Positions 17,915-58,823 of a stretch of 60,387 bases of DNA are shown here, piece after piece. A model generated the notes under the pieces. It was not told the DNA's origin and did no database searches. It saw only the letters and a program-made list of their open reading frames with translations. The translations under genes and the position numbers were made by a program. The DNA comes from a virus: the IMG/VR virus record IMGVR_UViG_3300050014_001170, positions 1 to 60,387 of that record. One strand, 5' to 3'. Position 1 is the first letter of the stretch. Each line of letters begins with the position of its first letter.

Positions 17915-18223
17915 ATGATATATTTTAGGGAACCAATATACGAAATCTTTTCGAAATAAAAAAATATTTATTGAATTATTTTTTCAGGGCTGTATCTATT
18001 AATAATTCGCGGGTCGTGCGCGCTCGCGACTAAAGAACCAAATTTTTCCTTTCTTACATATAAAGAGATTTTTTCCTTCTCTCTTAGACACTTATTTTAT
18101 GCAACTCCTGGAAAAAGTTTTGTTAAAATCTGTTAAAAAAGTTAATTTTTCGTTAAATATGTTTTTTAATGTGAGAATTTTGTTGTACATTTGTCCTGAA
18201 TAAATAAAGCAAAGATATTATCA
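17915..18223 (+). other. divergent control region between leftward and rightward genes
   Basis: 309 nt without a gene, where transcription direction flips. It holds a leftward promoter box TATATTGG (17940-17933), an isolated GC-rich near-palindrome at 18013-18030 (GTCGTGCGCGCTCGCGAC) in an otherwise AT-rich sequence, and four GTTAA repeats plus the rightward box TACATTTG (18186-18193). It could be a regulatory hub, an origin, or a recombination site; sequence alone does not decide. Confidence 0.6.
18122..18193 (+). promoter_or_regulatory. promoter with four phased GTTAA boxes
   Basis: GTT of the GTTAA boxes begins at 18122, 18132, 18141 and 18152, 9-11 nt apart, and the last box ends 32 nt before TACATTTG (18186-18193). 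Same geometry as the promoter at 24397-24449; the TTAAC-type promoters elsewhere in the window carry the boxes on the other strand. Confidence 0.6.
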
Positions 18224-18802: not shown

Positions 18803-18866
18803 AATACTTATAAAGTAAATTCTAAAAAAATATCTCAAATTATTTTTTAGTTTTAGATTTTTTTCG

Positions 18867-18874
18867 TATATTTG
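18867..18874 (+). promoter_or_regulatory. promoter box TATATTTG without TTAAC boxes
   Basis: A perfect TAnnTTTG box preceded by a T-rich stretch, 70 nt upstream of the small gene at 18945. No TTAAC doublet is found upstream, so it belongs to the simple promoter class. Confidence 0.6.
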
Positions 18875-18944
18875 AACCTTAATTAAAACATTTACATCTC
18901 TTTCGCATAAAAGATTAAAGAATATATAAAAAAATAGAAACATA

Positions 18945-19726: not shown

Positions 19727-19758
19727 ATCCCAGATTATTATTTAGTCTGGGATTTTTT
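19727..19758 (+). terminator. rho-independent terminator fused to a promoter
   Basis: ATCCCAGA and TCTGGGAT form a perfect 8-bp stem followed by six T. The T run is only 3 nt before the next promoter box TACATTTG (19762), so terminator and promoter are combined. Confidence 0.85.
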
Positions 19759-19761
19759 ATG

Positions 19762-19769
19762 TACATTTG
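19762..19769 (+). promoter_or_regulatory. promoter box TACATTTG giving a near-leaderless mRNA
   Basis: TAnnTTTG box with only five nucleotides (TTCTT) before the ATG at 19775. Confidence 0.65.
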
Positions 19770-19774
19770 TTCTT

Positions 19775-20809
19775 ATGAATATACCTTTAACACGAGATGT
19801 TTTTAGAAACTCCGTTTTCGAACGAGATAAACATCTTTGTGTGATATGTAAAGAAGCGGCCTTAGATGCCCATCATATTTTAGAAAGAAGGCTTTTTCCC
19901 GAAGGGGGATACTATCTCAACAACGGAGCATCGCTTTGTGAAAAACATCATTTATTAGCTGAATCTACTCAGCTATCCTGCGATGAAATTCGGCAATCAG
20001 CGGGAATAACAGAGATAGTACTTCCCCCTCATTTTTATACAGATGTTGAATATGATAAATGGGGTAATGAAGTTCTTGCAAATGGTACACGTGTACGCGG
20101 GGAACTATTTAATGATATGTCTGTTCAGAAAATACTTACCCCAGTTTTGGATCTTTTTACTGATAGGGTTAAATATCCTAGAACTTTTCATTTACCCTGG
20201 AGCCCTGGAATGAGTAGAGATGATCGCATGATGGAAAATATAAAAGTTTTTGAAGGGCAGGAAGTTATGATATGTGAAAAACTTGATGGGGAAAATACAA
20301 CTTGGTATAGAGATTATCTTCATGCTCGATCTATAAATTCGGATAATCATCCATCAAGAAATTGGGTTAAAAATCTTTGGGCTCAGAAAGGATATGAGAT
20401 TCCTGAAGGCTGGAGAGTCTGCGGTGAGAATATGTTTGCCAAGCATGCAATTCATTATACTAAGGAAAAAGGAAATGCTTTATCGACATATTTTTATATG
20501 TTTTCAATTTGGGATGAAAAAAATATATGCTTGAGTTGGAAAGAAACAGAAGAATGGGCAGAACTTCTTGAACTTACTTTAGTTCCTGCATTTTATAAAG
20601 GAATTTGGGATATGAAAGTAATAGAGGAGCTTAATAAAAAGATGGAAGCAAATCCTGGAACAATAGAAGGATATGTTGTACGTTTAGCTCGGGAATACCA
20701 TTATTCAGAATTTAGAAATGTATGTGGAAAATATGTTCGAAAAAATCACGTCTCAAATTCACATGGGCATTGGGCTCAACAAAAAATAACTAAAAACGAA
20801 CTGAAATAA
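19775..20809 (+). CDS. HNH nuclease - RNA ligase fusion (344 aa)
   Basis: Residues 12-65 are an HNH domain (FERDKHLCVICKEAALDAHH ... NNGASLCEKHH): C22/C25, H33-H34, C55, H58-H59. From about residue 105 it becomes a nucleotidyltransferase: motif I CEKLDGEN with K169, motif III-like GENMFAKHAIHY, FYMFSIWD, motif IV EGYVVR and motif V GKYVRK, close to the Rnl2/DRB0094 group of RNA ligases. One polypeptide therefore carries a potential cutter and a sealer. It has its own promoter at 19762. Confidence 0.85.
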   Translation: MNIPLTRDVFRNSVFERDKHLCVICKEAALDAHHILERRLFPEGGYYLNNGASLCEKHHLLAESTQLSCDEIRQSAGITEIVLPPHFYTDVEYDKWGNEVLANGTRVRGELFNDMSVQKILTPVLDLFTDRVKYPRTFHLPWSPGMSRDDRMMENIKVFEGQEVMICEKLDGENTTWYRDYLHARSINSDNHPSRNWVKNLWAQKGYEIPEGWRVCGENMFAKHAIHYTKEKGNALSTYFYMFSIWDEKNICLSWKETEEWAELLELTLVPAFYKGIWDMKVIEELNKKMEANPGTIEGYVVRLAREYHYSEFRNVCGKYVRKNHVSNSHGHWAQQKITKNELK

Positions 20810-20990: not shown

Positions 20991-21008
20991 ACCCTTAATA
21001 ATTTAACT

Positions 21009-21098
21009 ATGAAAAACACTATTAAACATTGGCTATTTGTTCAAAGAAGTACCATGAAAAACACTATTAAACATTGGCTATTTGTTCAAATAAGTACC
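21009..21098 (+). repeat. tandem 45-nt duplication
   Basis: Two consecutive 45-nt copies (21009-21053 and 21054-21098) differ at very few positions. Each encodes MKNTIKHWLFVQ in the frame that leads into the KH protein. It could be a duplicated leader peptide or an alternative N-terminus. Confidence 0.85.
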
Positions 21099-23868: not shown

Positions 23869-23953
23869 TGTTAAGATTCTGTTAAATTTAACGTTTTTTA
23901 ACGATTAAATTTCCTGAGTAATTTTTTTACTCGGGATTTTTGTTGTATATTTA
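23869..23953 (+). promoter_or_regulatory. terminator-promoter with mirrored GTTAA/TTAAC boxes
   Basis: Two GTTAA boxes (23870 and 23881) and two TTAAC boxes (AAC at 23890 and 23900) form a mirror-symmetric array around GTTAAATTTAAC. Then comes a hairpin (CCTGAGTAA / TTACTCGGG with T loop, 23913-23935) with a T tail, and then the box TATATTTA at 23946-23953. The last TTAAC box is 44 nt from the -7 box, one turn farther than elsewhere. Confidence 0.6.
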
Positions 23954-23974
23954 TCCCAATTAAAAAATCTTTAA

Positions 23975-24388
23975 ATGAGTTTTAAAAACAAATTTAAAAA
24001 ATCAATATTAATTGCCATTTTATTTTTATTTGGGGTTGCTGTTTTGGCAGCACCAAGAAAAATAACCTTAAATAGCCTCACCCCAAATATTCTTTGCCAG
24101 GGATTAAGCACACTTGTAAATTTTACAGTTGCTGGTAATTACAATTTTGGCAATAAGTTTAATGTTGAACTTTCAGATAATTTGGGAAATTTTTCTTCTC
24201 CAACAATTATAGGCTCTTTATTTAGCACGAATTCAGGAACATTTACCGTAACTACAGATCCAATAATTGTTATTGGTACAGGATATAGAATTAGGGTAAG
24301 AAGTACTAACCAAGTAGTAACATCCGGTTCTTTATCAATAAAAATTTATCTCCATCCTGCTCTAAATCCTATAATTAAATTGTATTAG
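23975..24388 (+). CDS. secreted Ig-like surface domain protein (137 aa)
   Basis: Signal peptide of about 26 residues (KKSILIAILFLFGVAVLAA). The mature part has the pattern NILCQGLSTLVNFTVAGNYNFGNKFNVEL ... GYRIRVRSTN, which is the Ig-like domain commonly repeated in Bacteroidetes gliding and adhesion proteins, here as a single unit without a sorting tail. First gene of the secreted cassette, behind its own terminator-promoter. Confidence 0.7.
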   Translation: MSFKNKFKKSILIAILFLFGVAVLAAPRKITLNSLTPNILCQGLSTLVNFTVAGNYNFGNKFNVELSDNLGNFSSPTIIGSLFSTNSGTFTVTTDPIIVIGTGYRIRVRSTNQVVTSGSLSIKIYLHPALNPIIKLY

Positions 24389-24396
24389 TGAATGTT

Positions 24397-24449
24397 GTTA
24401 AAATATTGTTAAAAATATTTCTTTACTACGGAAATTATTCGTATATTTG
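24397..24449 (+). promoter_or_regulatory. promoter with two GTTAA boxes
   Basis: GTTAA boxes begin at 24397 and 24408 (11 nt apart); the second GTT ends 32 nt before TATATTTG at 24442-24449. Drives the secreted protein at 24499. Confidence 0.65.
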
Positions 24450-24498
24450 CATTCTAAATTTAATATTAAAAATAAATTAAAAATTAAAAAAAGTAACT

Positions 24499-25176
24499 AT
24501 GAAAACATTTAAATTTTTATTTGGAATTTTAGCTTTATTAGTAATAACAGCTATTAGTGCAAACGCACAGATTGTGGTTACCGAAGGGTCTACCCACAAT
24601 TTCAAGGTAACTACTGACCATTCAGCCGCACCTTTCAATTATGTTTATGGTTGGTCAACTGCTCCTGGTGGCAATACAATTGCTACGGCGGACAAAGCTG
24701 CTACTGATATTAAATTCGTTGTTGCAGGTGCCACCACAATTTCAGTTAGCGAAACTAATCCTCTTGGAGGTTGCGCTACAATCAACAACTTTTTAGTTAC
24801 CGTTCTTGGTATGCAAACATTAGCTTTTACATCAGCTACTTCTCAAAGTTGCGCTAATGTAGCCGCAGTTCTTCCTTTTACCTTTGGCGGGGCAACAGCT
24901 GATTATTATCCTTTGGTTATAAATTATAAAGTAGCTATCAACGGTGCACCTGCAATAGACAGAATAGCAACTTTGGCTTTTGGAGCAACATTCGAACTTC
25001 CTTTAACAGCTGCCGACCGTGCTGACCTGTCTAACCCTGCCGGTCCTTCTTATAATATAGTTGTTACTTTGGTTAGTGCAACTGCTAATTCCGGTACTGT
25101 TACACTTGGAGCAGCAGTTAATACTAACACAGTATTTGACATCCCAGATGCAAACGTAATTATAAAGGTCAATTAA
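24499..25176 (+). CDS. secreted Ig/PKD-like protein, probably abundant (225 aa)
   Basis: Signal peptide ends at SANAQ (residues 1-23). The mature protein is Ala/Thr/Val-rich, low in Lys, with two beta-sandwich-like halves (EGSTHNFKVTTDHS ... VSETNPLGGCATINNFLVTVLG and a second half to the end). It has a strong promoter of its own and a strong terminator right after it. Its third-codon positions use more C/G than neighbouring genes. Together these point to high expression. Likely exported to the periplasm or cell surface. Confidence 0.7.
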   Translation: MKTFKFLFGILALLVITAISANAQIVVTEGSTHNFKVTTDHSAAPFNYVYGWSTAPGGNTIATADKAATDIKFVVAGATTISVSETNPLGGCATINNFLVTVLGMQTLAFTSATSQSCANVAAVLPFTFGGATADYYPLVINYKVAINGAPAIDRIATLAFGATFELPLTAADRADLSNPAGPSYNIVVTLVSATANSGTVTLGAAVNTNTVFDIPDANVIIKVN

Positions 25177-25191
25177 TTACTTATCTACCCT

Positions 25192-25225
25192 GCAAACCCC
25201 AAAACCTCGGGGTTTGCTTTTTTTC
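25192..25225 (+). terminator. strong rho-independent terminator
   Basis: GCAAACCCC and GGGGTTTGC form a perfect 9-bp stem with an 8-nt loop, followed by eight T. It ends the 24499 transcript and probably limits expression of the next two genes. Confidence 0.9.
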
Positions 25226-25276
25226 AAAAAATTTTTCAAAGCATTTTTCTTCAAAAATTTTTCCTCAAAAATACTG

Positions 25277-25834
25277 ATGAAAAAATTAATCGCCATATTA
25301 TTTTTCTTCCTAATTTTCTGGAATGCTCAAGCTCAACAAAGAGTTTTCCGGGGATCAGTACATCAGTATACAATAAAAAATGAAAATCCTTTATATAGTT
25401 TTATTTGGACAACATCCGGAGGAACTTCTTCTTCATTACAAACAAAAGAAATCGCTACTATAAAATGGGACGGATTTACAGGAATTTATACACTTTCCGT
25501 AATTCTTGTAAATAATATCTCTGGTTGTGCAAGTAATCCTATTTCTCTTGAAGTAGAGATAATCGATGGATTAATAATACCTAATGCCTTTACCCCCAAT
25601 GACGATGGACAAAATGATCTATGGATAATTGGAGGATTAGAGGGCTTTCCTGATTTAATTGTAACGATCTTTGATAGTTGGGGAAGAACTATTTTCAGAT
25701 CAGAAAAAGGTTATCCTAAACCCTGGGATGGCGAATGGAAAGGGGTCAGGGTACCAATAGATGCATATTATTATATCATTGATTTAAACAATGGGGATAA
25801 ACTCCTAAAAGGAAGCGTAACACTTATTAGATAA
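25277..25834 (+). CDS. type IX secretion cargo with gliding-motility-type C-terminal domain (185 aa)
   Basis: The start at 25277 gives a good signal peptide (KKLIAILFFFLIFWNAQAQ); the upstream in-frame extension is the terminator tail. Residues 20-100 form a PKD-like domain. From residue 104, LIIPNAFTPNDDGQNDLW ... VTIFDSWGRTIF ... YPKPWDGEWKG ... VPIDAYYYIIDLNNG ... GSVTLIR is the full type B (CHU_C / gliding motility-associated) sorting domain. The protein should be exported by the host type IX system and kept at the cell surface. It is next to its presumed outer-membrane partner. Confidence 0.88.
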   Translation: MKKLIAILFFFLIFWNAQAQQRVFRGSVHQYTIKNENPLYSFIWTTSGGTSSSLQTKEIATIKWDGFTGIYTLSVILVNNISGCASNPISLEVEIIDGLIIPNAFTPNDDGQNDLWIIGGLEGFPDLIVTIFDSWGRTIFRSEKGYPKPWDGEWKGVRVPIDAYYYIIDLNNGDKLLKGSVTLIR

Positions 25835-25839
25835 TAATT

Positions 25840-26814
25840 ATGAAAAAATTAATTTCTTTTTACATCTTAATATTTTTAACTATATCGGTTAAAGGGCAAC
25901 AGGTTCCTATATTTAGCCAATATATGTTCAATAAGTTTTTACTTAATCCAGCTTTAGCTGGAGCAGAAGGATATACATCTTGTACTATTACTTCTAGATT
26001 ACAATGGGCAGGATTTAAAGATGCTCCTGTTACAAATTCTATAAATGCTCAAACTCGACTTACTAAAAAATCTTCAGGAAAAAAGGTTAGTCAGTTCTCA
26101 GATAATTATGGAAAAACAGGGATTGGAATAAATATTTATGATGATCATCGAGGGCTTCTTGCTCAAACTGGGGTTGAATTTACTTATGCATATCATACAA
26201 AAATTGCTGAGAAAGCTCAATTATCTTTTGGCTTAACTTACAGCATGACAAATTTTCGCTTAGATAAATCTAAATTACAATTAAACGAACCGGATAATTA
26301 TTTAACCATGAATAATCTATCACTATGGATAATGGATTTAAATGCTGGGGTTTATTTAACTACTCAGAAAGCATATTTAGGATTTTCAGCAAATCGTATT
26401 TTGCCCGATTATTTAATACCTAGTTCAACTCTTGGAATGGGAAATCCCGAATATGTTGAAATGAAACTCAAAAGAAACTACAATCTTATGGCAGGATATA
26501 GATTTGCACTTGATAAAAACTGGGGGATCGAACCAAGTTGCTTCTTTAAAACTACAGATCAAATTCGGCTTTCTCAGATTGATCTATCCTGTAGAACTTA
26601 TTACAAAAGAGATTTTTGGCTTGGCTTTGGAGTTCGTTCGGGAAATGCTTTAACAGCGAATATGGGGGTTAGGTGGAATAATATCTATTTTGGATATGGA
26701 TATGATTTTACTTTGAATAAGCTTCAAACCTATTCAGCAGGAACTCATGAATTTATCATTACTTTTAAGATTGGTCAAAACGTTTGGAAATATAAATGGT
26801 TAGAAAGATTTTAA
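25840..26814 (+). CDS. sprF: PorP/SprF-family outer membrane protein (324 aa)
   Basis: Signal peptide to KGQQ, then QVPIFSQYMFNKFLLNPALAGAEG ... LQWAGFKDAPVTNSINAQT, the hallmark start of the PorP/SprF family, followed by alternating amphipathic strands up to an aromatic end, as in an outer membrane barrel. Length is normal for the family. In Flavobacterium SprF-like proteins are paired with a type B sorting-domain protein, and here the gene follows one by 5 nt. The phage would thus bring its own anchor for its surface protein. Confidence 0.88.
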   Translation: MKKLISFYILIFLTISVKGQQVPIFSQYMFNKFLLNPALAGAEGYTSCTITSRLQWAGFKDAPVTNSINAQTRLTKKSSGKKVSQFSDNYGKTGIGINIYDDHRGLLAQTGVEFTYAYHTKIAEKAQLSFGLTYSMTNFRLDKSKLQLNEPDNYLTMNNLSLWIMDLNAGVYLTTQKAYLGFSANRILPDYLIPSSTLGMGNPEYVEMKLKRNYNLMAGYRFALDKNWGIEPSCFFKTTDQIRLSQIDLSCRTYYKRDFWLGFGVRSGNALTANMGVRWNNIYFGYGYDFTLNKLQTYSAGTHEFIITFKIGQNVWKYKWLERF

Positions 26815-26866: not shown

Positions 26867-27859
26867 ATGAAGAAAGTAAAAATGAATATCAAGGATCTTC
26901 CCATATTAGGGAATGCTCAAATTCCTATTCATCTTATGCATTATTCCCACAAAAAAGATAAAAAGAAATTTTTTCAATCGGGATTTGCTTATTTTGGGGT
27001 TGCTGATGATCAAGCAGATGTAACTGGTTCTGATGGCGAAGACAAAGGATCTCTTGGCGGAAAAATGGGAGGAAATTACGAAATAATTCAGAAAAGAAAA
27101 GAAGATGATATTACACTTATTATTGATGTTGAGGATTTATGGGAACAAATAAGTAATCTTCTTGAAACTGCAGGGGTTAAAGTTCAGTTAGAAGGGATCG
27201 AAGAAACCTATAAAAAATATTGGGCTAAACATGAAAAGCTCAAAGAAATTTCTCAAATGCAAAAAGAAGCAGAAGAAGCTATAAAAAAAGAGGAAAAAGA
27301 AAAGATTAAAGAAGCTGAAGCAAAAATTAAAGAAGTTGAAACAGGGATTAGGGATTTTTCAATACTTACAGATAATGGGTGGGATTTAACTAAGGAAATT
27401 AGCGACTATGACTATCGTTATGATGAAGATTATCGATTTGATTGTAATATTGGAGTTGGGGTAAGAGTTGCTAAAGATGGAGATTGCTATACTTCTAAAC
27501 GTGTAGACTCAGTTCCAACAGTTACCCTTGATATTACTACATGGAAAGGAATTAGTCCTGGGGCTATTCATTATTATGGGGATCTTAAAATTTCTTTACC
27601 TCAATTTGAAAGAGATAATCGTTCAGGACATTTTTGCTCAATGTGGGATATTCCTTTTTTCAAAAATAATAGAATAAATCTTACCCATGTATTGGAACAA
27701 TGGGAAATAGATCGATATCCTGATAGTTATCAAGATATTCGTCTCGGACAACATATTAGGGGTTTTTATGCTCCAGAAGGAGTTAAAAGAGCTGCAGAGG
27801 TATTTTTTGCTGAACATTTTGATCCAGGATGGGATTTTAAAATTGAGGAAAATTACTAA
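26867..27859 (+). CDS. coiled-coil protein of unknown function (330 aa)
   Basis: Residues 110-165 form a long Lys/Glu coiled coil (EETYKKYWAKHEKLKEISQ ... AEAKIKEVETG). N-terminal region has Gly-rich SDGEDKGSLGGKMGGNYE, C-terminal 160 residues are alpha/beta. No known family. Stop overlaps the ATG of the next gene (TAATG). Confidence 0.6.
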   Translation: MKKVKMNIKDLPILGNAQIPIHLMHYSHKKDKKKFFQSGFAYFGVADDQADVTGSDGEDKGSLGGKMGGNYEIIQKRKEDDITLIIDVEDLWEQISNLLETAGVKVQLEGIEETYKKYWAKHEKLKEISQMQKEAEEAIKKEEKEKIKEAEAKIKEVETGIRDFSILTDNGWDLTKEISDYDYRYDEDYRFDCNIGVGVRVAKDGDCYTSKRVDSVPTVTLDITTWKGISPGAIHYYGDLKISLPQFERDNRSGHFCSMWDIPFFKNNRINLTHVLEQWEIDRYPDSYQDIRLGQHIRGFYAPEGVKRAAEVFFAEHFDPGWDFKIEENY

Positions 27860-28452
27860 TGAAAAGAATTACAATAATCGTAATGTATATCATGGAATCC
27901 AAAACTCCATGGAAGGATTTCTTCTGGTTATTAAGAACTCTTTTAAATACTCCAATGATTTTATTTCACGAACTATCTCATATACTAGCTATTATTTTAA
28001 CAAGATGCGATGCTAGTCTGGATCCTAAGAAGTGGTATTTTCTTGCTAAAACCAATACACCTTACATTAATTCTGAAGGAAAAGAATGTATAAAAGCTGG
28101 ATTAGGATTTGCTTTTCCTATTGCTCTTCAAGATTCAAATCCTTGGAAAATTTTAATAGTCGGGGCAGCTCCTTTATTATCTATTTTATTTGATATATTT
28201 CTATGTTTTTATATTCCTTCAAAAATTCATATCCCTTTTGCATTTCAATATGTTATAATGAATTTTATGTTTGCTTATTTGGCTAGCAATTTAATGGAAG
28301 GAGCTTGGCTTAGTAAAGATGATATGAACTGTATTAAAATAGGGTGGAATCAGATAAAACCAGAAATTCATTATAGAGTTCGAAATATTTCAGAAAAAGT
28401 TTTTATTATAAAGAAATTATTCGTACATTTGCATTTATGGAAAGATCGTTAA
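27859..28452 (+). CDS. membrane HExxH protein, M50-like (197 aa)
   Basis: Contains MILFHELSHILAIILTR: an HExxH zinc motif (HELSH) embedded in a hydrophobic helix, as in intramembrane metalloproteases of the M50 type. Two or three further membrane segments follow (WKILIVGAAPLLSILFDIFLCFYI, FAFQYVIMNFMFAYLASNLM). The second M50 metal-ligand motif (NxxPxxxLDG) is not obvious; NLMEGAWLSKDD may replace it. Could cleave host membrane proteins, or be a non-catalytic relative. Confidence 0.6.
   Translation: MKRITIIVMYIMESKTPWKDFFWLLRTLLNTPMILFHELSHILAIILTRCDASLDPKKWYFLAKTNTPYINSEGKECIKAGLGFAFPIALQDSNPWKILIVGAAPLLSILFDIFLCFYIPSKIHIPFAFQYVIMNFMFAYLASNLMEGAWLSKDDMNCIKIGWNQIKPEIHYRVRNISEKVFIIKKLFVHLHLWKDR
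28424..28431 (+). promoter_or_regulatory. promoter box TACATTTG
   Basis: TAnnTTTG box lying inside the end of the membrane-protease gene, five nucleotides before the ATG at 28437. Confidence 0.55.
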
Positions 28453-28893: not shown

Positions 28894-28922
28894 AAATATT
28901 TTTGAATTTGGGATTTTTTATG

Positions 28923-28930
28923 TACATTTG
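28923..28930 (+). promoter_or_regulatory. promoter box TACATTTG giving a near-leaderless mRNA
   Basis: TAnnTTTG box after a T run, five nucleotides before the ATG at 28936. Confidence 0.6.
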
Positions 28931-28935
28931 CAATT

Positions 28936-29319
28936 ATGATTTTATCTAAACAAGATATTGAAGATATTAATAAAGAGTGCCCTTCTGATCAAGGAATCTT
29001 TAGAGAACCATATGGTATTCCAACTCATATAAAAGAACATGTTATTTATATGAGATGGGAAACAGGAGGAATGGCTGGAGGAAATTGCTGGGGGGATGAT
29101 GCTTATTTTCAAGAGGGAGAGCCAAAACCTAAATTTAAGGTTTTGGATATTCTTTTGAAACGCGTTAAACCTAATATTTCTCTTTTAGAATTTAGGGAAC
29201 TTGAAGAACTCATTCATACAAATCATGAAACAAAGTATGAATATTATGGCAACAGTGAGGATTATGAAATAGAATACATTATACTTTCTGAGTTTTTGAA
29301 TAAAATTGAACACTTTTAA
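28936..29319 (+). CDS. unrecognised protein (127 aa)
   Basis: Acidic soluble protein with a Gly-rich centre (MRWETGGMAGGNCWGDDAYF). Own promoter upstream. Unknown function. Confidence 0.6.
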   Translation: MILSKQDIEDINKECPSDQGIFREPYGIPTHIKEHVIYMRWETGGMAGGNCWGDDAYFQEGEPKPKFKVLDILLKRVKPNISLLEFRELEELIHTNHETKYEYYGNSEDYEIEYIILSEFLNKIEHF

Positions 29320-31131: not shown

Positions 31132-31884
31132 GTGAAAATGAAGATTGTAATTTTTACACATGATGCGGAGATTATTAATATATTTAATAGATACACTCGA
31201 GCCGCAGATCCTTCAAAACCTACATATAAAGATTCTGTTCTTCTTCAAAAAGAAACCATAGAGTTAATAACAGCTCGGACAGAAAAAGCATTTTTTGATT
31301 TAATTGCTGATGAATCTATAGAGGGGTTTGCTATTAGTGTTGCATCCTCATTCTCTAAAAAAGCTATCGATTTTATTAAAAGAAGATCTTCCTATGTTCC
31401 AATTCTTTTATATGGAAATATGAAGGATCTTATTTCTATAATGGGGGCAGATATTTATATTCCTTTTGAAGAATCAGGGGATAAGGAATTTTCCTATCAA
31501 AGTCTTTTTGATATTATTGTAAGAAATGTCTCCAATTATACCAAAAATTTTGGAAAACTTCGTAAACTTATGACAAAGATGGCTGAAGTTATTGAGTTTG
31601 ATTCTTGCAAATATGATCCTACTCGAAGAATGCTTTTTCATCAGGGGAAGGAAGTTAAAAAACTTTCAGCAAAAGAAGGGGGCATTCTTGAAATACTTTC
31701 TGTAAATTTTGGTCAGGTAGTTAAGAGAGGAATTATTCTCGAAAAGGTTTGGAAGGTGGATGATTATTTTTCAGGGAGATCTATGGATGTTTATGTTACT
31801 CATTTAAGAAGACTTTTTCAAGAATATGAAATAAATCTTACCATTAAGAATATATCTGGAATAGGTTTAATTCTCGAAGCTTGA
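31132..31884 (+). CDS. OmpR/PhoB-type transcription regulator with degenerate receiver (250 aa)
   Basis: Residues 155-250 are a winged helix of the OmpR/PhoB type: KKLSAKEGGILEILSVN ... VVKRGIILEKVWK ... RSMDVYVTHLRRLF ... IKNISGIGLIL. Residues 1-130 have the alternating strands of a receiver domain, but the expected phospho-acceptor strand reads EGFAISVASS without an Asp and the conserved Lys-Pro is replaced by YIPFEE. It should therefore not depend on phosphorylation. OmpR-family proteins bind tandem direct repeats about 11 bp apart next to promoters; such repeats (TTAAC) occur before this gene and others here. Confidence 0.85.
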   Translation: MKMKIVIFTHDAEIINIFNRYTRAADPSKPTYKDSVLLQKETIELITARTEKAFFDLIADESIEGFAISVASSFSKKAIDFIKRRSSYVPILLYGNMKDLISIMGADIYIPFEESGDKEFSYQSLFDIIVRNVSNYTKNFGKLRKLMTKMAEVIEFDSCKYDPTRRMLFHQGKEVKKLSAKEGGILEILSVNFGQVVKRGIILEKVWKVDDYFSGRSMDVYVTHLRRLFQEYEINLTIKNISGIGLILEA

Positions 31885-46284: not shown

Positions 46285-47088
46285 ATGCTAATGACTAATT
46301 ATCAATTTACATTAAAAAGAAGTCCTATTGATCTTAGAGATTTAATGTTATGCTCTGTTTATTCAGCTGACATAAAACTTCCAACAACCTATGATCTTCG
46401 CCCAGAAATGCCTCCTATTAGGGATCAAGGAAATCAGGGTTCCTGTTCTGCTCAAACAGCTTCTGAAATGAAAGAATGGCAAGAAAGAGCCAATATGGGA
46501 TATGAAAAATATATGTCTCCTCAATTTATTTATAATTTGAGAGAAAATTATGAGGAAGAGGGAATGACCCCAAGGGATACAATGAAAATTCTTAATAAAA
46601 TTGGAGTTGTTTATGAAAAAAATTATACATATGGAAAAATAGAACGACTTGATCCCAGCAGTATGAGCCTTGAACTTTTAAATGAAGCTGCTAGGTATAT
46701 AATTTCAGGATATGCAAGAATTAATTCGGTTGAGGGATTAAAAAAAGCTTTATTTACTAATGGTCCTTGCTATATGGCATTTCCAGTTTATAATCCTGAA
46801 AAATGGGAATTCTGGAAACCTGATTATGCAGGGCAGAAAGCATTAGGAGGACATGCAGTTTCTGCTGTTGGTTGGTTGAAAAATAGTTTTATTATTCGTA
46901 ATCACTGGACTGATCAATGGGCAGATAATGGATATACCTATCTTAAATTTACCGATTGGGGTATGCAATGGGAAGCTTGGACAACTATTGATGCAGATTC
47001 TCTAGAAAATTTTAATAGAAAAGCAGTTGCAACCTATGATTTACCAGGATTTTTTGCTAAACTTTTTTATAAAAATTTACATAAATAA
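46285..47088 (+). CDS. papain-like (C1A) cysteine peptidase (267 aa)
   Basis: DLRPEMPPIRDQGNQGSCSAQTASEM contains the catalytic Cys (C54, after DQGxQGSC). GGHAVSAVGW carries the catalytic His and FIIRNHWTDQW the Asn, where the usual NSWG reads NHWT. No signal peptide, so cytoplasmic or virion-associated. Paralogue of the protein at 57978, sharing the KEWQE and SPQFIYN segments. Confidence 0.82.
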   Translation: MLMTNYQFTLKRSPIDLRDLMLCSVYSADIKLPTTYDLRPEMPPIRDQGNQGSCSAQTASEMKEWQERANMGYEKYMSPQFIYNLRENYEEEGMTPRDTMKILNKIGVVYEKNYTYGKIERLDPSSMSLELLNEAARYIISGYARINSVEGLKKALFTNGPCYMAFPVYNPEKWEFWKPDYAGQKALGGHAVSAVGWLKNSFIIRNHWTDQWADNGYTYLKFTDWGMQWEAWTTIDADSLENFNRKAVATYDLPGFFAKLFYKNLHK

Positions 47089-57564: not shown

Positions 57565-57981
57565 ATGAACACTCAGTTTTGGAAAGGCTTTCTTATGTGT
57601 ATTGTCGGAGTAATTTTTACTACATTTAATACAATTCCTATTAACTTTTCCATAATGCTTGTTACTCTGATTGGTTCTATCCTGGTGTATATAGGAACTA
57701 ATGCAATCAAATCCTTACGCCCAATATCAATTCCAAGTACATTAACCTGGAGAGATGCGGTTCATTCTCTTTTTATTCTTATTGGCAATGGCCTCGTTGA
57801 TTCAGCTTATTCAATAGTAACTGGAACTACAATACATTGGATTATTTTATTACAAATATCAGCAAGTATTGCATTCACATATTTAGGATCAACATTCTTT
57901 GGAGGTCCATATTCAGCAAAACCTGTTAGCTGGTCAAAAAAGACACGTATTTCTTATACTAAAAAAATGATGATATTATGA
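57565..57981 (+). CDS. membrane protein, holin candidate (138 aa)
   Basis: Four hydrophobic segments (FLMCIVGVIFTTFNTIP, IMLVTLIGSILVYIGTNAI, AVHSLFILIGNGLVDSAYSIV, WIILLQISASIAFTYLG) and a basic C-terminus (KKTRISYTKKMM). Size and topology suit a holin or a small channel, but no family motif. Overlaps the peptidase gene by 4 nt. Confidence 0.55.
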   Translation: MNTQFWKGFLMCIVGVIFTTFNTIPINFSIMLVTLIGSILVYIGTNAIKSLRPISIPSTLTWRDAVHSLFILIGNGLVDSAYSIVTGTTIHWIILLQISASIAFTYLGSTFFGGPYSAKPVSWSKKTRISYTKKMMIL

Positions 57982-58823
57982 AAGATTTTAGCCAATACAA
58001 ATTAAATGTTCTTCCTAGTCCCAAAAATAAAAGAGATTGGTTAGCATCTGAGATTTATCCTAGAGCAATATTACCAGAAGTGGTTGATTATCGTCCTCAA
58101 ATGCAACCTATTAGGGATCAAGGCGATCAAGGATCGTGTGCAGCTATGGCCGGTGCTGCAATGAAAGAGTGGCAAGAGAAACTTGACATGAATCTTAATG
58201 AGTACATGAGTCCTCAATTTATTTATAATAGCAGAGAAGATCTGAATGAAGAAGGAATGTACATGAGAGATCTTATGGCAGTATTGAAGGAAAAAGGGGA
58301 TTGTTTAGAAATAATGTTTCCTTATGGAAACATGGAATTACCATCTATTGATGCTCTTATGAATGCTTCTCTTTATAAGATATTGAATTATGCGTTCATT
58401 GATATAATTGATGATTTAAAATTATCTCTTTATTCTAATGGTCCTTGTATTATTGCAGTTCCAGTCTATAACTTTACAGAACGTATGTGGTTTCAGGGAT
58501 CAAAACAAAATCTTCTGGGCGGCCATGCATTATGTGTAGTAGGTTATAATAAAGATGGATTCATTATTAGAAATTCTTGGGGTACTGATTGGGGTCAAAA
58601 TGGTTATTGCATTATGTCTTATGATGATTTTGGTTTACAATGGGAATTATGGACTACTGTTGATGCAAGATCTTATAATCCACCAGTTCCACCAACACCT
58701 CCAGAACCACCAACCCCACCAACACCACCGGATCCACCTATTCCGCCAACACCTCCGGATCCACCAGTTCCACCAGAGCCTGAAAGAAAAGGTTGTTTTG
58801 CAAAGATTTTCGGAATTTCTTAA
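57978..58823 (+). CDS. papain-like (C1A) cysteine peptidase with proline-rich tail (281 aa)
   Basis: DYRPQMQPIRDQGDQGSCAAMAGAAM has catalytic Cys (C54), GGHALCVVGYN the His and IIRNSWGTDWGQNGY the Asn, a normal NSWG. After residue 230 there is a tail of PPxPP repeats (with Pro-Glu and Pro-Asp) ending ERKGCFAKIFGIS. Paralogue of 46285, with a better conserved active site. No signal peptide. Confidence 0.85.
   Translation: MKDFSQYKLNVLPSPKNKRDWLASEIYPRAILPEVVDYRPQMQPIRDQGDQGSCAAMAGAAMKEWQEKLDMNLNEYMSPQFIYNSREDLNEEGMYMRDLMAVLKEKGDCLEIMFPYGNMELPSIDALMNASLYKILNYAFIDIIDDLKLSLYSNGPCIIAVPVYNFTERMWFQGSKQNLLGGHALCVVGYNKDGFIIRNSWGTDWGQNGYCIMSYDDFGLQWELWTTVDARSYNPPVPPTPPEPPTPPTPPDPPIPPTPPDPPVPPEPERKGCFAKIFGIS

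Follow-up and report, generated by a model that had tools for sequence, protein, structure and literature searches.

Type B cargos of the type IX secretion system (T9SS) stay at the cell surface via their own PorP-like carrier (PMC9143113; PMC12635249). The best-known pair, SprB/SprF of Flavobacterium johnsoniae, is encoded in the operon sprC-sprD-sprB-sprF; gliding SprF requires a Cys-X-Cys in its C-tail for bonding to the moving track, the motif being dispensable for cargo export (PMC12635249). In the PG1035-PorP(-PorE) system of Porphyromonas gingivalis, a small non-gliding type B protein uses a PorP carrier (PMC9143113). On the phage side, cryophages encode type A T9SS cargos that are thought to use the host system (PMC7468147), and sorting domains were noted in gut phage ORFs near crAss-BACON ORFs (PMC6949934).

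The four-gene cassette analysed here shares features with each of these systems. As in the spr operon, a type B domain is followed by a PorP-like carrier, with two more genes 5', a likeness of position; SprB is a giant adhesin whereas the phage cargo has 185 aa, the phage carrier lacks the C-tail Cys-X-Cys of gliding SprF (PMC12635249), and the cassette is phage-borne. Phage location also separates it from PG1035-PorP, as does a carrier without an adjoining PorE-like gene. The cryophage cargos, unlike ours, are enzymes and a PA14 protein with domains of type A, and a carrier gene was not reported (PMC7468147); for the crAss-BACON case, domain type and carrier were not described and no surface module was proposed (PMC6949934). 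Among solved proteins, only the grappling-hook protein GhpA of Aureispira (PDB 9flp and others) has a C-terminus matching the profile of the small phage cargos (E=8.9e-27, PDB sequence profile search), although it is bacterial and 5898 aa long. Finally, we propose for the phage module a logic of tip, shaft and anchor with short C-terminal strands shared with donor-strand pili (e.g. type V pili of Bacteroidales), but no sequence relation is shown and strand donation in the phage module is hypothetical.

An earlier note on this DNA had known of no phage system of this kind. That claim has to be narrowed, considering that phage T9SS cargos were noted before (PMC7468147, PMC6949934). The cargo-plus-carrier pair and the split module described below nonetheless appear to be new here, and our searches of the open-access literature gave no report of either in phages.

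A type B cargo adjoins a PorP/SprF carrier in a phage

The window, meaning the whole stretch of 60,387 bases analysed, comes from a record classed as virus. Four + strand ORFs follow one another in it, confirming the gene block that the earlier note had read, and are accompanied by putative transcription signals:

23912..23953, + strand: terminator-like hairpin (23912-23936) leading into a promoter box of Bacteroidota type (to 23953); such elements recur 5' of other genes in the same phage
23975..24388, + strand: gene 1, 137 aa with putative Sec signal, a single unit of a repeat known from large host surface proteins; equivalent of A in the phage module; C-terminal tail NPIIKLY
24434..24449, + strand: second promoter-like box, ATTATTCGTATATTTG, 5' of gene 2, putative from its likeness to the repeated box
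24499..25176, + strand: gene 2, 225 aa with putative Sec signal, probably Ig-like, in the position of partner B; C-terminal tail NVIIKVN
25192..25224, + strand: hairpin followed by a T run, resembling a strong intrinsic terminator (-16.6 kcal/mol, z -5.6), between gene 2 and genes 3-4
25277..25834, + strand: gene 3, 185-aa mini-cargo with putative Sec signal, one Ig-like domain and a type B T9SS sorting domain (about 25577-25831)
25840..26814, + strand: gene 4, outer-membrane carrier of the PorP/SprF family; C-tail without cysteine

Profile searches confirmed both family assignments made earlier. The gene 3 product matched CHU_C (PF13585) with E=1.8e-19 and 70.1 bits (cut-off 27) and TIGR04131 with 66.1 bits (cut-off 35), far above the curated cut-offs and with the alignment running to the last residue, as expected of a complete type B sorting domain. 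Gene 4 matched PF11751 (E=1.6e-74, 251 bits) and TIGR03519 (242.5 bits, cut-off 90.55), in both cases over the full length. A six-frame search of the whole record gave a single match each to the type B domain and to PorP/SprF, both in the cassette, and the same search gave none in 14 control genomes. With 5 bases between the two ORFs and phage genes on the flanks, the proposal that a type B cargo adjoins its carrier family within a phage is thus borne out.

The ORF lister placed the start of gene 3 at TTG 25214; from the ATG at 25277, a clear signal peptide can be read by eye, and the AlphaFold model has a helix at residues 2-17. The N-termini of all four products look like Sec signal peptides, also judged by eye. 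A fold search with gene 3 returned generic Ig/cadherin folds, and at 185 aa the protein is not a giant repetitive adhesin like gliding SprB. Cysteines of gene 4 are found at positions 48, 234 and 251 only, and its C-tail, KIGQNVWKYKWLERF, has no Cys-X-Cys. As gliding SprF needs this motif, static display is predicted: gene 4 should act as a static anchor and not be carried along the gliding track. Altered gliding, one of the outcomes suggested before, is therefore disfavoured. No PorE-like Pfam match was found among the ten neighbouring products scanned.

In host genomes, a type B cargo lies directly 5' of the carrier for 43 of the 65 PorP genes examined, several of the others being at contig ends. 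The closest host homologues of genes 3 and 4 form one adjacent pair on a Bacteroidales MAG contig (L004), with 47% identity for the sorting domain and 33% for PorP; the tree agrees with this pair as the nearest, on two long branches. IMG/VR scans with PorP alone or gene 3 alone found nothing, a 34-sequence PorP alignment was too divergent as scan query, and no near relative of the gene 3-gene 4 pair was found in IMG/VR or GenBank phages. PorP matches in two GenBank entries named 'Bacteriophage sp.' (MT839621, L002; MT836089, L003) were rejected as phage copies, as their ORFs are Bacteroidales chromosomal T9SS loci. Both entries have PorP followed by PorK/PorL/PorM/PorN-like genes and are Bacteroidales chromosome fragments.

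Phage genes flank the cassette

Products of the window include a phage-type clamp loader, an exonuclease, a nucleotidyltransferase, an RNA ligase/tail-fibre attachment protein, homing endonucleases and virion-like proteins, and a second RNA ligase has 47-53% identity to jumbo phage enzymes, e.g. that of Caulobacter CcrBL9. Judged by these products, the window is a fragment of a jumbo-type phage. The left flank is conserved in two sister contigs, L264 and L265 (22652-23536, 58-64% identity), and extends with 72% identity at 23533-23865 in L265 only; after it, both sisters have different genes in place of the cassette, and the type B domain is absent from both records. On the right, genes between 28609 and 31884 have 40-59% identity in the sisters, where they lie elsewhere and inverted, so that synteny does not span the right junction. 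The gene at 26867 had no relative in IMG/VR by scan, and the right flank is thus based on the genes from 28609 on. The earlier note would have been undone by missing family matches or by signs of host DNA joined by misassembly; both families matched and no evidence of such a join was found. Misassembly of the cassette into the phage is unlikely.

A regulatory element of phage type also precedes the block. The hairpin/promoter composite element of this phage has 8 matches against 0.36 expected and sits 5' of phage genes, and a repeated intergenic element precedes phage genes at 18160-18210, 18841-18891, 19736-19786, 23920-23970 and 28897-28947, the copy at the cassette uniting the hairpin with the promoter box; the repeated regulatory motif was not found in the sister loci L264/L265. 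Gene 2 has its own promoter-like box 5' and the strong terminator-like hairpin 3', and for this reason it may be produced in excess.

Other features of the window were recorded along the way. A winged-helix regulator of the OmpR/PhoB type (31132-31884), in which no receiver domain was recognised, is conserved at 40-43% in the sister phages. Just 3' of the cassette, 27859-28452 encodes a predicted membrane protein with a HELSH motif, possibly a site-2-type metalloprotease, with no Pfam match. Two related peptidase-like genes (phrog_16701) are present at 46285-47088 and 57978-58823. Two 45-base direct repeats, 96% identical, at 21006-21095 lie where the ORF at 21009 begins and give a repeated N-terminal peptide, MKNTIKHWLFVQ.

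Mini-cargos with secreted partners are widespread in phages

With the type B domain as query, an IMG/VR scan confirmed 130 viral stretches, and a second scan with a mini-cargo alignment added more. The fetched viral loci have 93 distinct ORFs with a complete sorting domain, of which 37 are mini-cargos (230 aa or less), and the 35 that have 160-230 aa fall into 24 clusters at 60% identity. Gene 3 aligns over its full length with 25 phage mini-cargo proteins (26-34% identity), and a secreted partner of about 185 aa lies directly 5' of most mini-cargos. Many of the records have Terminase_6N and T4 portal matches, with no match to Terminase_6C in phage records; the terminase and T4-type portal genes show that these records are phages. 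Short type B frames in hosts numbered four among the matches listed for 61 sampled Bacteroidota genomes, one of them at a contig edge, and partner-like domains in 296 host genomes (E<=1e-12) occurred only within frames of 452 aa or more. In the genomes of two uncultured phages, type B sorting domains number four (LR745206, 635 kb) and three (LR756502, 642 kb).

Most mini-cargo phages encode no carrier, in records of up to 322 kb. Among the 27 records searched, PorP was found only in the window and in one other lineage (L092/L103, contigs of 270 and 83 kb). The carrier of L092 (17083-18072, - strand), also present in L091, L100 and L103, has just one Cys in its C-tail, and about 7 kb away the opposite strand encodes a type B cargo of 998 aa. 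Placement on the tree needs at least two origins of the phage carriers, that of the L092 lineage having been acquired separately. As to the four-gene order that the earlier note proposed to look for in other Bacteroidetes phages, the exact order was not found elsewhere, but the cargo half is widespread, usually without carrier.

The earlier description of genes 1 and 2 as signal-peptide Ig-like proteins also stands in part, with Sec signals recognised by eye and the Ig-like character only partly shown. Gene 1 has 30-45% identity to repeat units within host surface proteins of 307-2535 aa. Gene 2 is a near-orphan that weakly resembles the Ig portion of gene 3 (phmmer E=5e-4); its match to the partner B family is not significant (hhalign probability 7%), its position and matching tail being as for B.

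The last residues of the two upstream proteins, A and B, agree within each genome (ISHD/ISHD, INHF/IQHF, INHY/IQHY, VFTN/IFTN, NIQ/TIQ), and the window has IIKLY/IIKVN for genes 1/2. Over 19 pairs of strictly adjacent ORFs, the similarity of the last five residues was reached by 0 of 20,000 shuffles, compared with 1237 for the control block -10 to -6 and 950 for -15 to -11; related phages are not fully independent here, and taking one pair per tail class gave the same answer. Some phages have the same domains fused in a single ORF, of 732 aa in the megaphage LR745206 and 742-830 aa in others, and in these fusions the tail position is the stretch immediately before the next Ig domain. The matching tails and their place in the fusions suggest docking of the tails in trans, perhaps by strand donation; the AlphaFold model of a fused B-C region (pLDDT 55.9) was too poor to judge the latter. 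With the tails of two upstream proteins matching and the same domains fused in some phages, the A-B-C module looks like a split adhesin.

Discussion

We consider it probable that the cassette is a phage-encoded surface-display module using the host T9SS. Gene 3 would be exported by Sec and, as its family membership and published T9SS biology lead us to expect, its sorting domain would take it through the host SprA/Sov translocon. It would then be handed to the gene 4 barrel and remain bound at the cell surface, statically anchored. Genes 1 to 3 may form a split adhesin, with genes 1 and 2 each docking on the next subunit by a short C-terminal tail, and the complex could exit the cell on the gene 3 sorting domain; as neither gene 1 nor gene 2 has a sorting domain, their export would be unexplained unless they ride on gene 3. 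The result would be an altered surface of the infected cell. Transcription counts against the one-complex model, as the hairpin 3' of gene 2 sets this gene apart from genes 3-4.

The purpose of such display is the least certain step. Receptor masking, or other exclusion of superinfecting phages, is a tentative suggestion, attractive because F. columnare resistant to phage lose their gliding and the receptor suggested by the authors is the motility apparatus (PMC3534065). Nearly as likely, the display would make infected cells adhere or aggregate. Equally tentative is the possibility that Bacteroidota phages, many of them T4-like, encode surface fibres of a class not recognised before, in which tip, shaft and type B anchor are separate proteins whose C-terminal tails match. 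Host type IX secretion would export these fibres, in some lineages with a carrier that the phage itself encodes, and they would rebuild the infected-cell surface against superinfection or for adhesion.

The same F. columnare observations (PMC3534065) would fit a blocking role: by filling the T9SS translocon or the carriers of the host, the mini-cargo would keep host adhesins, including some that serve as phage receptors, off the surface, and the carrier of the window would be a secondary addition. In most phages with a mini-cargo, this cargo must use host proteins, no carrier being encoded, and it is cut down to the sorting domain and a single Ig domain, at a size far below that of most host cargos. 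Nevertheless we regard this as unlikely, since an own carrier makes titration of host carriers unnecessary and conserved secreted partners with matching tails suggest building and not only blocking. Much less likely still is that the block is recently captured host DNA, or a misassembly join, with no function for the phage. Its absence from the sister phages, the drop of GC skew within the block and a pair with no near relative found in IMG/VR or GenBank phages would agree with such an origin, but the ORFs are intact, a phage-type terminator-promoter element precedes them, both sides hold phage genes, hosts rarely have the mini-cargo size and the closest host homologue of the carrier, just 33% identical, argues against a recent host fragment.

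We give the least weight to the proteins being on the phage particle instead of the cell, which seems highly improbable. Ig-like domains are common on virions and fibre-like genes are in the same genome half as the cassette; on the contrary, Sec signals and an adjoining outer-membrane barrel would not be expected of proteins on the particle of a lytic tailed phage, and the cassette genes lie outside any structural cluster.

In conclusion, surface display through the host system, the reading that we prefer, would be a case of a phage supplying both cargo and outer-membrane carrier, and the assembly model would, if true, define a new class. As the wider module suggests, large Bacteroidota phages may commonly remodel the surface of their hosts by way of type IX secretion. 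Moreover, the tiny type B cargos would be convenient for probing carrier specificity, at present investigated with giant adhesins.
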